From contig CP070803.1 in the NCBI GenBank assembly GCA_020343615.1, positions 328,325 through 369,087 on the forward strand: a stretch of 40,763 nt of DNA, in the 5' to 3' direction. Position numbers and translations under genes: made by a program. Every line of letters begins with the position of its first letter. Within the stretch, counting starts at the first letter, position 1. The notes under the pieces were generated by a model, which saw only the letters and a list, made by a program, of their open reading frames with translations, did no database searches and was not told where the DNA came from. This document shows, in pieces, positions 8,199 through 21,334 of the stretch. Origin of the DNA: Candidatus Woesearchaeota archaeon. Lineage in GTDB: Archaea; Nanobdellota; Nanobdellia; UBA10117; GCA-020343615.

Positions 8199-9313
8199 CA
8201 GTACTAGAGCCTGTAATAGGATTTAGTGATAACTATGGAGATCAGTTACTTAAACGTAGATATTTAGAAGCACTATTTAGTACATTTGCACAGAAAAATA
8301 AATATAATGAGATAGAAACGCCAATAATTGAGAGAGCTGAGTTATTTGATCCCAAGTTTTTTTCGAATTGGAATCCAGAAGCTTTCTTCAGAATCAATAT
8401 CAACGATTACAACGAAGACTATGAACTATTAAAAGAAAATATCGGTATTCTAAGGCCAGAAGGGACAATACCTGTTTGTAGGTTTATAGCAAAGAAGATT
8501 AATGAAGGACTAGATTTACCGATAAAATTAGCGTACGATATAGTATGTTATCGGAATGAACCAATAACAGAAGTTGATGGATTTAAGAGAAGAGAGTATA
8601 AACAACTAGGCGCTGAATACATTGGTGATAAAAGTTTAAATGCCGACGCAGAAGTCATATCTTTTGCCTATAATTTCTTAAAGAATCTAGGATTTAATGA
8701 AGAGAATATAAATGTAAGACTCAATGACGTAAGTATATTTAACAACTTAACCGAACAAAGTGGATTGGAGCGTAAAGTTAAAAATTCTCTTCAGAACGAA
8801 TTAGACACGTTCTCTAAGAATAGAGCTATTTCTCGTAATGATCGGGGAGAAAAAACAACAATAGCGGAGAATGACAGAGAATTAGGAAGACGAAGAATAT
8901 TGAGGATTGTTAGCGATAATTTAGAGGACTATGAACTAAAGGATAAATGGGAAAGACTCCTTATAGAAGAGGGAATAGAAGACTTAGTAGAATGTATTCC
9001 TGAATATAAGAAGTTAACTCCATTAGTAAGTAGGTTAAATAAAAAGGGAGTAAATGTTACTATAGATCCTACTGTTGTTAGGGGTTTTAACTATTATACT
9101 GGTCCTGTTTTTCAAATAGATTATGATAAAAACGTAGAAATTGCAGGCGGAGGACGTTATGATAATATAATTGGAGATTATTTAAAATTTCTAGGAATAG
9201 ATAAAAAGGTTCCCGCAACAGGATTTGCTTTTGGTTTGGAGAGAATAGTAAACTCAGTAAAAGATGGTAAGAAAACAGTGACATTTGATCTAGGAGGTAG
9301 CAATGAAAACTGA
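8186..9313 (+). CDS. HisRS-family paralogue lacking anticodon-binding domain
   Basis: The 375-residue frame is a class II synthetase core of the HisRS family: motif 1 region IETPIIERAELF, motif 2 CYRNEP...KRREYKQLGAEYIG, the histidine-specific RGFNYYTGPVF and AGGGRYD, and motif 3 ATGFAFGLERI. It ends right after motif 3, so the tRNA-anticodon domain of true HisRS is missing, as in HisZ-type regulatory proteins. No histidine-biosynthesis gene is nearby. The continuous frame starts at GTG 8186, but the strong Shine-Dalgarno points to ATG 8131 in another frame; the 13-nt repeat accounts for the shift. The last 11 nt overlap the next gene. It could be an editing, amidation or adenylation enzyme; the exact role is unknown. 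Confidence 0.8.
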   Translation: MVAFTVLEPVIGFSDNYGDQLLKRRYLEALFSTFAQKNKYNEIETPIIERAELFDPKFFSNWNPEAFFRININDYNEDYELLKENIGILRPEGTIPVCRFIAKKINEGLDLPIKLAYDIVCYRNEPITEVDGFKRREYKQLGAEYIGDKSLNADAEVISFAYNFLKNLGFNEENINVRLNDVSIFNNLTEQSGLERKVKNSLQNELDTFSKNRAISRNDRGEKTTIAENDRELGRRRILRIVSDNLEDYELKDKWERLLIEEGIEDLVECIPEYKKLTPLVSRLNKKGVNVTIDPTVVRGFNYYTGPVFQIDYDKNVEIAGGGRYDNIIGDYLKFLGIDKKVPATGFAFGLERIVNSVKDGKKTVTFDLGGSNEN

Positions 9314-10010
9314 AAATATGAGTTGGGATGAAATAAGAGATTATAGAAATAAGCCAATAATTATTCCTATTGGTGCTATAGAACAACATGGTCCTATGGC
9401 ACCAGTAGCTACAGATTCAATAGTTGCCGAATATCTAGCGAACAAATTGGGTGAAAAACTGAACTTTCCAGTAGCTACTTGCATAAATTTTGGATGTGTA
9501 GACCCTTCTTTCAGAAGATTTACAGGAAGTATATGTATCAAGCCAGAGACATTTATCAACTTATTGAGAGATATCATAGAATCTTATAAATTCCAAGGAT
9601 TTTCAAAATTTATAATAGTAAATGCACATGAGACTAATACAAAACTCATAGAGAGAGTTTTACAAGACATAGAAGGAATAAAAGCGGTGTCATTTGAATA
9701 TTGGAAGGTAGATAATAGAATCAACGATATTGTAGAATCAGAATTAATACATGTGTGCGAAGATGAAATAGCCATTATGCTTGCTATTAAACCAGAGCTA
9801 ATAAAAAAAGAGAAAGTAGTAGATGAATTGCCAAAGGAAGCAGAATTAGAATATACGTTGATCCCTCTTCCAGAGGAGTATAAGACAAAGACCGGAGTAA
9901 TGGGAAAACCTAGCAAAGCGACTGCTGAAAAGGGAAGAAAAATAATTGATTTAGTGATAAATAAGGTATTAGAAATCATTAGAAAAGAATTAATAAATAA
10001 TGAGGTGTAA
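9303..10010 (+). CDS. creatininase-family amidohydrolase
   Basis: A 235-residue metal-dependent hydrolase. The family metal ligands are visible: E and H in IGAIEQHGP (about residues 22-30), D in VATDS, and E in the CEDEIAIML segment. The usual NGHGGN motif appears as NAHETN. Archaeal members include formamidopyrimidine deformylase ArfB of flavin/deazaflavin synthesis, but this protein is too diverged to assign that activity. Its ATG has a good AGGAGGT site inside the upstream gene and overlaps it by 11 nt; HisRS follows after 9 nt. The fixed position between two HisRS-family genes suggests co-expression, perhaps a joint pathway. Confidence 0.82.
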   Translation: MKTENMSWDEIRDYRNKPIIIPIGAIEQHGPMAPVATDSIVAEYLANKLGEKLNFPVATCINFGCVDPSFRRFTGSICIKPETFINLLRDIIESYKFQGFSKFIIVNAHETNTKLIERVLQDIEGIKAVSFEYWKVDNRINDIVESELIHVCEDEIAIMLAIKPELIKKEKVVDELPKEAELEYTLIPLPEEYKTKTGVMGKPSKATAEKGRKIIDLVINKVLEIIRKELINNEV

Positions 10011-10019
10011 TTAATAAAA

Positions 10020-11321
10020 ATGGTGAATCTAGATATTCCAAAAGGAACAAGAGACTTTTTGCCTAAGGAAAAGATAATTAGGCAAAAAATAGTAGACGTG
10101 TTTAGGGAGACCTTTGAAGAATTCGGCTATAATCCATTAGAAACACCCTCCTTAGAATTACTTAAAGTGGCCACATATAAAGGCGGAACTCAGGCTGGAA
10201 CAGACACCTACAAAGAGATTTACAAACTAAAAGATCAAGCAAAGAGAAAATTATCGTTGAGATACGAATTAACCTTTCCTTTAGCTAGAGTTGTTTCCAT
10301 GTATAAACAACTTCCTATTCCTTTCAAGAGATATCAAATTGGTAGGACTTGGAGAGACGGTCCAATTAAAACTGGAAGATATAGGGAATTTTGGCAATGC
10401 GATGTTGATATTGTTGGAACAGATTCAATAGAAGCTGACGCTGAAATTCTAGCACTCTATACTAAAGTTTTTGAAAAACTCAAACTTAAAGTAGTCATTA
10501 AAATAAGCAACAGAAAACTTTTAGACGGGATTCTAGAATTTGCAGGAGTTCCCAAGAATAAAAAAGACGCAGCAATGATTTCTATAGATAAGTTAGAAAA
10601 AATCGGAAGAGACGCTGTTCTTGATGATGCAAAAGAAAGAGGACTAGATGAGGATTCAATGATAAAAGCTCTAGATATGTTAGAACAAGAAGGTTCTAAT
10701 TCAGAGATTATAAAGAATCTAAGCAAGTTCGTCAGCAATGAAAAAGCAAAAGAAGGCTTAGAGGAAATAAAAGAGTTACTAAAATTAGCTAAAAATTTTG
10801 GAGCAAAGAATGTGGAGTTCGTTCCTTCTTTAGCGAGAGGACTATCTTATTACACTGGTCCTGTTTTTGAGGTATTTTTGAAAAGCAGAAAGTTGAAATC
10901 TTCATTAGCAGCTGGTGGACGATGGGATGATATGATTGGAAATTTCTCAGGATCCAAAGAAAAAATACCTGCTACAGGAACATCTTTTGGTTTAGATACA
11001 ATATATGATGCATTGATTCTAGAAAAGAAAGCAGATCTAAAGACGTCATTAGTTCAAGTATATGTAATTCCTGTTGGAAACACTAGAAAAGAAGCAGCTA
11101 AAGTAGCTTCTGAATTAAGAGAGTCAGGAATAAATACAGACTTAGATCTAGTTGTAAGAGGGATTTCTAAGAATTTGACCTACGTAAACAAACAAGATAT
11201 TCCCTATGTTATATTCATAGGTGAGAAGGAACTAAAACAAAAGAAGATAAAGTTAAGAGACATGAAAACAGGAAAAGAAAAACTAATTACTATAAAGCAA
11301 GTTATTAAAGAATTATCTTAA
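10020..11321 (+). CDS. hisS: histidyl-tRNA synthetase
   Basis: The 433-residue enzyme charges tRNA-His. It begins with the HisRS signature IPKGTRDFLP, has motif 2 YQIGRTWRDGP...GRYREFWQCDVDIVG, the histidine-binding RGLSYYTGPVFE and AAGGRWD, motif 3 GTSFGLD, and a C-terminal anticodon-binding domain (about 340-433; VQVYVIPVGN...). Length is normal. GAGGTG lies 12 nt before the ATG. It ends the plus-strand histidine block and overlaps the convergent FttA-type gene by 9 nt at the 3' ends. Confidence 0.95.
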   Translation: MVNLDIPKGTRDFLPKEKIIRQKIVDVFRETFEEFGYNPLETPSLELLKVATYKGGTQAGTDTYKEIYKLKDQAKRKLSLRYELTFPLARVVSMYKQLPIPFKRYQIGRTWRDGPIKTGRYREFWQCDVDIVGTDSIEADAEILALYTKVFEKLKLKVVIKISNRKLLDGILEFAGVPKNKKDAAMISIDKLEKIGRDAVLDDAKERGLDEDSMIKALDMLEQEGSNSEIIKNLSKFVSNEKAKEGLEEIKELLKLAKNFGAKNVEFVPSLARGLSYYTGPVFEVFLKSRKLKSSLAAGGRWDDMIGNFSGSKEKIPATGTSFGLDTIYDALILEKKADLKTSLVQVYVIPVGNTRKEAAKVASELRESGINTDLDLVVRGISKNLTYVNKQDIPYVIFIGEKELKQKKIKLRDMKTGKEKLITIKQVIKELS

Positions 11322-19189: not shown

Positions 19190-19262
19190 TAGCCCCGCCA
19201 GGATTCGAACCTAGGTCATCGGCTCCAAAGGCCGATATGATTGGCCACTACACCACGGGGCT
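19190..19262 (-). tRNA. tRNA-Gln (TTG)
   Basis: A 73-nt cloverleaf: acceptor AGCCCCG/CGGGGCT with A73, D-arm GTG/CAT, anticodon stem TCGGC/GCCGA with loop CTTTGGA (anticodon TTG), variable loop TGAC and T-arm CTAGG-TTCGAAT-CCTGG. The first pair is A1-U72, unlike the G1-C72 of tRNA-Glu. With GatD and GatE present it is presumably charged with Glu and then amidated. Confidence 0.95.
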
Positions 19263-19356
19263 GTAAGAATTAATCGTTGATTCTTAATTTATAAGGTTTA
19301 TTATCTAAGAAATAGAACAAATATTTTTATATCTTTACTATCAAGTAGCTAAAAAA

Positions 19357-19884
19357 ATGCTCTCAGTTATTGAAGTTACACCGAACACTAGTCTAGAAGG
19401 CATAATTGATGCCTCTGCGAAAGATATTGAAAAGAAGGCCGAAGATTACCTTGATTTGGATATTAGCAATGTTAAGAGATATCACAGATACACTATTGAT
19501 GCGGAATTAGAAGACAAAGAAGTAGAGTTAGTAGAAGATAAGATTTTCAAAAAGAATAGCAGAAAAACTTCTTTGAATAAACCTATTGCAGAAAGATACT
19601 GTATTGATTTTGATTCAGCCACGCCACCTCATCCGGTATTTGAACTTATTCAAGAAAAAGGTAAAGTTTCAACAAAAGAAATGTATGAAGATTTTAACAT
19701 GGGTTTTGGAATGTATGTAATCGTAACACCTAAAGAAGTATATAAAACTTTGAAAACACTTAAGGGATATAAAGTAGGAGATCAAGAAATTAAAGCAGAA
19801 GTAATAGGAAAAATAACTAACGATCATACAGATATTAATATAATTGCTTATGACGATTCGGAAATTACTTACCCAACAACTTAG
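19357..19884 (+). CDS. PurS-like / PurM C-terminal domain fusion
   Basis: The 175-residue protein has two parts. Residues 1-85 resemble PurS (or the PurS-like start of PurL), with VTPNTSLEG, a helix, and the closing SLNKPIAERYCIDF. Residues 88-160 match the C-terminal domain of AIR synthetase PurM: PVFELIQEKGKVSTKEMYED followed by FNMGFGMYVIV and a final strand-helix-strand. The N-terminal ATP-binding domain of PurM is absent, so it cannot be a complete AIR synthetase alone. It lies 79 nt before purD. It could be a scaffold subunit for a separate PurL or PurM, or a remnant kept for a new role. Confidence 0.65.
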   Translation: MLSVIEVTPNTSLEGIIDASAKDIEKKAEDYLDLDISNVKRYHRYTIDAELEDKEVELVEDKIFKKNSRKTSLNKPIAERYCIDFDSATPPHPVFELIQEKGKVSTKEMYEDFNMGFGMYVIVTPKEVYKTLKTLKGYKVGDQEIKAEVIGKITNDHTDINIIAYDDSEITYPTT

Positions 19885-19963: not shown

Positions 19964-21334
19964 ATGTCTGATCCTAAAGTTTTAATATTAGGTAGTAGCG
20001 CCAGAGAAGAAGCCTTGAAACAGGCATTAGAAAGAGACCAAGATGTTAAATCAGTTTATGTTGCTCCGGGAAATGGAGCTACAAAAAAAGATGGAAAGAA
20101 TCTATTTTTAGAATCCTATGACCCTCTTTATATTGCTCAGTATGTTTCTCAATATAACTCTATAACACCAGATCTTAATTTAATTATTGTAGGATCTGAA
20201 AATGACTTAAAAAAAGGAATTACAAATGAGTTTCAAGCAGATGAAAAATTACCGCCAGTATTTGGACCAACAAAAGAAGCAGCAATAATTGAAACAGACA
20301 AAGGTTTTTCATCAGAATTAATGTTTTATAATATGATACCTACCCCAATACCTGAAACTTTTCATACTGCTGAAGGTGCTAGGAGTCACATAAAAATGGA
20401 GTATCCTGATGGAAGAGTTGTAATTAAAGCAGTAGGTCCGGCATCAGGTAAAGGAGTCAGAGTTTGTGATAATTGGGAGGATGTAAATAAAGCACTTGAT
20501 GATATCTTAATAAAAAAGATGTATGGTTCTGCAGGAGACAGAGTTGTAGTCCAAGAACGACTTGATGGCTTGGAGGCATCTGTTGTTGCAGTTACTAATG
20601 GGAGAGATTTTGTTACTTTTCCCGTAACCCAGGATCACAAAAATTTACTTCCAGGAGACAAAGGCGAAATGACTGGAGGAATGGGAGCATATGGTCCTGC
20701 ACCAATTGCTAAAGGGCAAGAAGAAATATTCGAAGAGCAATTTATTCGCCCAACTATTACAACATTAAAAAAAGAAGGTATAGAGTACAGAGGAACATTA
20801 TATTTCGCATTAATGAATACAACAGCGGGCTGGAAATGTTTGGAGATAAATGCAAGATTCCCGAATCCAGAAACAATACCAATTGTTATGTTATTGGATG
20901 AAGGTTCTAAACTCTATGACTTGTTCTATAAAGCTGCTAAAGGAGAGCAAATTAGTCAAAATATGTTGAAATTCAAGGAAGGAGCAGTTTGCGATATAGT
21001 AATTGCTACAGATGGATATTCACAGCCTGAAAGAAAAGCTGAATACAGGGCAAATTTAAATTCAAAAATTCTTGGTTTAAAAGAAGCATCCGAAGTACCC
21101 GAAGTACAAATATTTCATGCTGGAACTAGCTATACACATCCGAATTTCTATAATTCTGGGGGAAGGGTTCTTAATGTGGCAGCATGGGCTCCTAATTTAG
21201 ACGAAGCTATGCAACATGCAAATGAAGCAGCTAGCAAGATAAGATTTGAGAACGGTAAGCAGATTTACCGTCCAGATATTGGCTGGAAAGCTAATTTAAC
21301 CTTAGATGCATACCTTAAAGATATTGGGAAATAA
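19964..21334 (+). CDS. purD: phosphoribosylamine-glycine ligase (GAR synthetase)
   Basis: The 456-residue ATP-grasp enzyme joins glycine to phosphoribosylamine in purine synthesis. The N-terminal domain begins VLILGSSAREEAL with the APGNGAT motif (about 34-40); the ATP-grasp core has VVIKAVGPASGKGV (about 152-165), MTGGMGAYGP (about 240-249) and the metal-binding CLEINARFPNPET (about 302-314). The C-terminal domain contains GGRVLNV. A strong AGGTGAT site precedes the ATG. The stop overlaps the ATG of the decayed PRTase gene as TAATG, so they were an operon. Confidence 0.92.
   Translation: MSDPKVLILGSSAREEALKQALERDQDVKSVYVAPGNGATKKDGKNLFLESYDPLYIAQYVSQYNSITPDLNLIIVGSENDLKKGITNEFQADEKLPPVFGPTKEAAIIETDKGFSSELMFYNMIPTPIPETFHTAEGARSHIKMEYPDGRVVIKAVGPASGKGVRVCDNWEDVNKALDDILIKKMYGSAGDRVVVQERLDGLEASVVAVTNGRDFVTFPVTQDHKNLLPGDKGEMTGGMGAYGPAPIAKGQEEIFEEQFIRPTITTLKKEGIEYRGTLYFALMNTTAGWKCLEINARFPNPETIPIVMLLDEGSKLYDLFYKAAKGEQISQNMLKFKEGAVCDIVIATDGYSQPERKAEYRANLNSKILGLKEASEVPEVQIFHAGTSYTHPNFYNSGGRVLNVAAWAPNLDEAMQHANEAASKIRFENGKQIYRPDIGWKANLTLDAYLKDIGK

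Follow-up and report, generated by a model that had tools for sequence, protein, structure and literature searches.

A reading frame in front of purD in a woesearchaeotal genome joins a purL-like start to a purM-like end

The locus upstream of purD

The locus lies in a stretch of 40,763 nucleotides (the window) from the genome of a Candidatus Woesearchaeota archaeon (assembly GCA_020343615.1, contig CP070803.1, positions 328,325 to 369,087). Its features, numbered from the first letter of the window, are listed below.

19190..19262, minus strand: tRNA-Gln (TTG), the upstream boundary of the ORF
19326..19332, plus strand: TATA-like TTTATAT (pattern match), with 24 bases between the motif and the ATG of the ORF
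19357..19884, plus strand: chimeric ORF P0001, 175 aa, in which a purL start runs in frame into a purM end (open reading frame, codon score)
19357..19599, plus strand: residues 1-81 of the ORF, PurS-like N-terminal repeat of long-form PurL, mdPurL type (profile, phmmer, hhalign)
19600..19881, plus strand: residues 82-175 of the ORF, C-terminal ~94 aa of PurM with roughly the second half of AIRS_C (AIRS_C, TIGR00878 and PDB matches)
19964..21334, plus strand: intact purD, 456 aa, downstream of the ORF on the same strand (TIGR00877)

The reading frame of the ORF is unbroken from ATG to TAG. Read in frame, it scores 0.354 bits per codon, which is coding-like beside the mean of 0.370 (sd 0.048) for the 18 ORFs in the window that reach 250 aa; the two halves score 0.388 (N half) and 0.326 (C half). 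The purD gene begins 79 bases after the ORF and matches TIGR00877 with 329.6 bits (cut-off 288), in agreement with an earlier note, written from the sequence alone, which had placed an intact purD beside the ORF. The TTTATAT motif is a possible promoter of a leaderless transcript; the TATA-like pattern has 154 matches in the window against 168.9 expected, and so is not commoner than chance. That the ORF is a piece of a frameshifted full-length purM, which the note had given as an observation that would tell against it, is excluded because the space is too small, the tRNA-Gln ending at 19262 and purD starting at 19964.

The two halves of the reading frame

Residues 1-88 of the ORF match no Pfam or NCBIfam model, PurS included. 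The N half was judged by a profile of 16 PurL N-terminal regions, the ORF itself being left out; among its rows, L128 is not a PurL start but a 169-aa ORF that stands by itself before a shorter purL. This profile gave 32.9 bits with residues 1-84, and the best of 5000 shuffles gave 13.4 bits. When it was run on the 121 window frames of at least 60 aa, the frame of the ORF scored 28.4 and the next frame 4.3. An earlier profile of nine sequences had given 22.4 bits for the ORF against at most 11.5 in 1000 shuffles, and hhalign gave 94.9% for residues 1-61. In a search of the PDB with the 16-sequence profile, the first seven of ten rows were either PurS chains or PurS-like proteins from archaea (E from 2.5e-4 to 0.1). 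By its sequence profile the ORF thus begins with a PurS-like repeat, as had been proposed, though Pfam and NCBIfam leave it unnamed.

The same region was also matched by phmmer to the PurL starts of L127 (7.2e-9), L130 (6.8e-6) and L131 (1.7e-4), which are three of the eight PurL ORFs within the 12 loci searched. Against all frames of all loci the three gave 4.7e-7, 5.7e-4 and 0.02 respectively, and the PurL start of the own genome, which is 25% identical to the N half, was not matched by residues 1-84 in this search. A structure model whose alignment included PurL rows suggests that the N half may take the PurS fold: the top eight Foldseek rows were PurS, but the best E was 0.021 and the confidence of the model is low (block pLDDT 45-66, residues 1-80). 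As described in excerpts of PMC3261824, mdPurL is an archaeal form of PurL that is extended at its N terminus by about 200 residues. The N half resembles its PurS-like start, but the ORF has the first repeat only and lacks the linker, AIRS and AIRS_C core of PurL. No match to the linker or AIRS of the PurL core was obtained in the ORF, and its sole AIRS_C match is the partial one in the PurM part.

The C half was identified as the end of PurM. AIRS_C matches the ORF at model positions 93-149 of 156 (6.7e-5, 23.5 bits, cut-off 23.1), and TIGR00878 (PurM) matches it at model positions 254-330 of 332 (1.6e-13). The TIGR00878 score of 50.6 bits is under the cut-off of 236.35, but the full-length PurM of the same genome is also under it (205.4), and the score alone is not decisive for the ORF. 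In the PDB, 19 of the 20 sequences matching the ORF at E up to 0.1 are PurM/AIR synthases, the exception being a Cas5 (0.023); the best are PurM chains, e.g. 2z01 and 2btu (1.8e-5), and E. coli PurM is aligned from residue 277 onward. Among the PurM columns conserved in at least 75% of 48 other rows (one of which, L046, is a second copy of the ORF and was dropped from later trees), the ORF keeps 11 of 12, the single change being I to V at residue 94. The conserved C-terminal segment NMGxG (FNMGxGM) is present. A fold search of the C-half model against the PDB gave no row at E <=0.001, with PurM at rank 3 (E 0.89). The whole-ORF models have mean pLDDT 61.5 and 52.2; in the first, for which PurM relatives were in the alignment, the block values are 64-90 from residue 91 on.

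The earlier note had described the C half as an isolated PurM C-terminal domain without the ATP-binding half. Its PurM origin holds, but the domain is not whole, since only AIRS_C positions 93-149 of 156 are represented. The ATP-binding half is indeed missing, with no match to PF00586, the N-terminal AIRS domain, in the ORF. Compared with PurM as modelled by TIGR00878, the ORF shares the last ~94 residues, the FNMGxGM segment included, but is without the first ~253 of 332 model positions, active-site residues included. Judged from its sequence, the product cannot be an AIR synthetase, because the active-site residues named for PurM in excerpts of PMC3261824 (Asp65, Asp94, His190 and His247, E. 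coli numbering) precede the retained part.

The border between the halves was placed by alignment at about residue 81/82. The PurL-like stretch ends with SLNKPIAERY, aligned to SVDHPIAHDF and SVKEPLAKDF in PurLs. From about residue 82 onward the sequence is PurM-like (CIDFDSATPPHPVFELIQ in the ORF, FLDFRAVEPPHTIFQLIQ in G234). It can be seen that the PurM part starts in the middle of a domain, away from any domain border. The halves were aligned and folded separately; a joint MAFFT alignment placed PurL starts, whole or partly, on the PurM part. What each half is, and the order in which the two stand, are shown by these data.

Purine genes in the same genome and in related genomes

The genome is a single contig of 919,375 bases with a stated completeness of 83.84%. 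It carries, at about 68-75 kb, a second purine cluster of the order purL-purQ-purC/purE fusion-purM, the products of which are PurL of 979 aa, PurQ of 267 aa, a PurC-PurE fusion of 496 aa and PurM of 375 aa. PurL passes TIGR01736 and PurQ passes TIGR01737, so that a check of the genome for purL and purQ, which had been proposed, found both present and intact. PurM is matched over residues 4-352 with 205.4 bits (cut-off 236.35). The PurL is of the mdPurL type and carries its own N-terminal PurS-like region. In the fused ORF (L021, 7606-9096), the PurC-like and PurE-like parts of one 496-aa archaeal protein are both under the model cut-offs.

Four AIRS_C matches were found in the genome, two in one PurL, one in PurM and one in the ORF, and AIRS (PF00586) occurs in the full PurL and PurM only. 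A split purM with its N-terminal part elsewhere was accordingly rejected, and the N-terminal purM fragment for which a search had been suggested was not found in the genome. AICARFT lies elsewhere in the genome, and a PurO-like ORF and guaB were recognized by eye. With TIGR01134 (PurF), the only matches were two ORFs under the cut-off that resemble GlmS and AsnB; for PurN, nothing in the genome passed the cut-off, and PF00156 and PF00551 yielded nothing over their cut-offs. Masked stretches or divergence could account for the apparent lack of PurF and PurN. The reduced pathway suggested by the earlier note is therefore seen in part only: PurF and PurN were not found, but purL, purQ, purC/E, purM, purD and AICARFT are present.

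In a survey of the order and class, 14 of 188 genomes matched the ORF, and in the phylum 78 of 371, own genome included in both; the two sets overlap. Among the matches listed for the 371 phylum genomes, both halves were matched only in the own genome, and no conserved fusion was found in either set. The nearest genomes among these matches belong to the same order, none to the same genus or family, and no undeleted counterpart of the site was seen among them. The search of genome_contigs gave 10 loci, with every match in PurM-like ORFs and no fusion; that of viral_contigs gave no relative of the ORF. No report of this purL-purM fusion was found in the open-licence PMC literature. Weak phylum rows were inspected by eye: G024, G352, G060 and G109 (match before residue 60, non-PurL frames) and G370 are unrelated, and G335 is a PurM cut by the contig end.

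The order of purL and purM was examined in loci fetched through a purine query match, which are not a random sample. In all 13 loci of at least 9 kb holding both genes, the two share a strand. The order expected of a deletion between them, purL then purM, was found in 8 of the 13 (L021, which is the own genome's cluster, L077, L078, L084, L085, L086, L126 and L130), and purM is upstream in the other five (L091, L128, L135, L136 and L137). The shorter loci L012-L014 also have purM upstream, giving purL upstream in 8 of 16 overall. In L078 the order is purL, purQ, purM, purD, and the window purD has its best match, the own one aside, in this locus (36%, 4.7e-74); the purD tree has a support of 0.18 at the relevant node, too weak for use. 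In G234, one of the two nearest PurM relatives, purM lies downstream of purL-purQ on one strand.

Several other gene forms were noted in these loci. In L128 (G282), the 169-aa ORF at 9798-10304, which resembles the PurS-like N-terminal region of PurL, stands between purM and a shorter purL, so that mdPurL may be present here in split form. Directly after purL-purQ, L084 (11386-12849) and L130 (8354-9835) encode unusually long PurM-like proteins (488 and 494 aa), which are weakly similar to PurM and may contain an extra N-terminal module. In L089 (G064, 8265-9196), purM is present as two overlapping ORFs of 264 and 58 aa, split near EMYKTFN, apparently a frameshift or a decaying gene; no PurL match was found in the G064 genome. 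L022 (8954-10294; G188/G213, a Woesearchaeota MAG) encodes a 446-aa PurM-like protein, with AIRS_C once in the genome, in which a search with the own PurL, run without a positive control, found nothing.

In trees, the PurM part of the ORF clusters with G234, G213 and G282 (support 0.85). The PurM of the own cluster falls into another clade, with G171, G162, G128 and G045. This indicates that the chimera was not derived from the present purM. The N half clusters with G053 and G230 (0.84 and 0.86), apart from the neighbours of the C half. The trees of the two halves, which are weak (about 80-95 residues each), appear to give no single donor operon. The C half has a tip branch of 0.72 (median 0.39; rank 12 of 48, counted from the longest) and a root-to-tip distance of 1.48 (rank 39, median 1.73); for the N half the values are 0.85 (rank 10 of 17, median 0.87) and 1.60 (rank 5, median 1.54). 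Clear acceleration was seen in neither half. The C-half trees omit L004 and L007 (both the ORF itself) and L018, L031 and L118 (partial or masked), as well as matches at E >=1e-3 and rows sharing the first 60 residues.

Origin of the chimera

The ORF, which lies upstream of purD, is probably an in-frame deletion scar that runs from the early part of purL into the late part of purM. We read it so because a purL start is followed by a purM end, the cut falls in mid-domain, as a random break would give, the order is one that occurs in related operons, the position is before purD, and full copies of both genes lie elsewhere. In an ancestral operon, purL would have stood upstream of purM and purD. 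The DNA between about codon 81 of purL and a point some 94 codons short of the purM end would have been lost, and the join would have kept the frame by chance, leaving a promoter-proximal chimeric ORF before the retained purD. FGAM and AIR synthetase activity would now be supplied by the intact purL-purQ-purCE-purM cluster, and the chimera would have no catalytic role, being at most the translated leader of a purD transcript. The deletion, its extent and the lack of function are what we infer here. Among the options of the earlier note, a relic is the likeliest, but for the purine-sensing part of that proposal no supporting evidence was found. As a scar, the ORF would be a readable record of the loss of one purine operon while another purL-purM cluster is present, and it would caution that domain matches alone may mimic a new enzyme architecture where two gene ends have been joined. 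Excerpts of PMC12892359 place many purine genes in the inferred last common ancestor of DPANN-like archaea, with later loss in one branch.

Several observations speak against a scar. The ORF is unbroken, has normal codon usage, keeps 11 of 12 conserved PurM columns and is not clearly accelerated, whereas decay would be expected unless the join is recent or the product is used. In addition, the halves point to no one donor operon, and purM is upstream in 8 of 16 loci. The unbroken frame and the kept residues imply that the join is recent or the protein useful, and the data fit either.

The unbroken frame, the lack of clear acceleration in either half, the coding-like composition, the retained NMGxG segment and the block pLDDT of 64-90 from residue 91 on would suit a working small protein, whose PurS-like unit, bearing a PurM tail, would dock onto PurL or PurM. 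It might serve, for instance, as a scaffold between FGAM and AIR synthetase or, before purD, as a regulator. We consider this unlikely, as the fusion occurs in one genome only among the matches listed, its PurM part is half a domain, the own PurL already bears a PurS-like region, and the whole-ORF models average pLDDT 61.5 and 52.2. An assembly subunit for FGAM or AIR synthetase, one of the earlier suggestions, is likewise unsupported, the own PurL having its PurS-like region and PurM being full length. Somewhat more doubtful is a lineage-specific small protein, itself born of an operon deletion, whose PurS-like docking unit and PurM tail would tether or regulate the two synthetases, or regulate the expression of purD, in a genome where no PurF was recognised. 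If functional, the ORF would be a rare new small protein built from two enzymes of one pathway.

It is improbable that two sites were misjoined in the assembly and that the chimera is absent from the cell. The ORF is known from the assembly alone, which is of incomplete stated completeness (83.84%), but both halves share the codon usage of the window and the join is in frame. Collapse of the own purL and purM copies offers no explanation, because neither half copies them (25% identity to PurL; PurM of another clade). Least probable of all is the fusion of a stand-alone purS, instead of purL, to the end of purM: PurS and the N-terminal repeat of PurL are alike in sequence and fold, but when the PDB was searched with the ORF by phmmer, no PurS chain came up at E up to 10, and the same method does match PurL starts in the fetched loci (a much smaller set, with E-values that are not comparable), and SLNKPIAERY aligns with the PurL segment that follows the first repeat.

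A deletion scar of this kind may be compared with Memar_1841, a fractional purQ of Methanoculleus marisnigri that is clustered with purS and purC. In the excerpts of PMC3261824 that describe it, the authors suspect that this shortened extra purQ arose by duplication or transfer, followed by decay. Here too an additional purine gene is shortened and its full form lies elsewhere, but Memar_1841, as described there, is one truncated gene, whereas the ORF in front of purD is a chimera of two.
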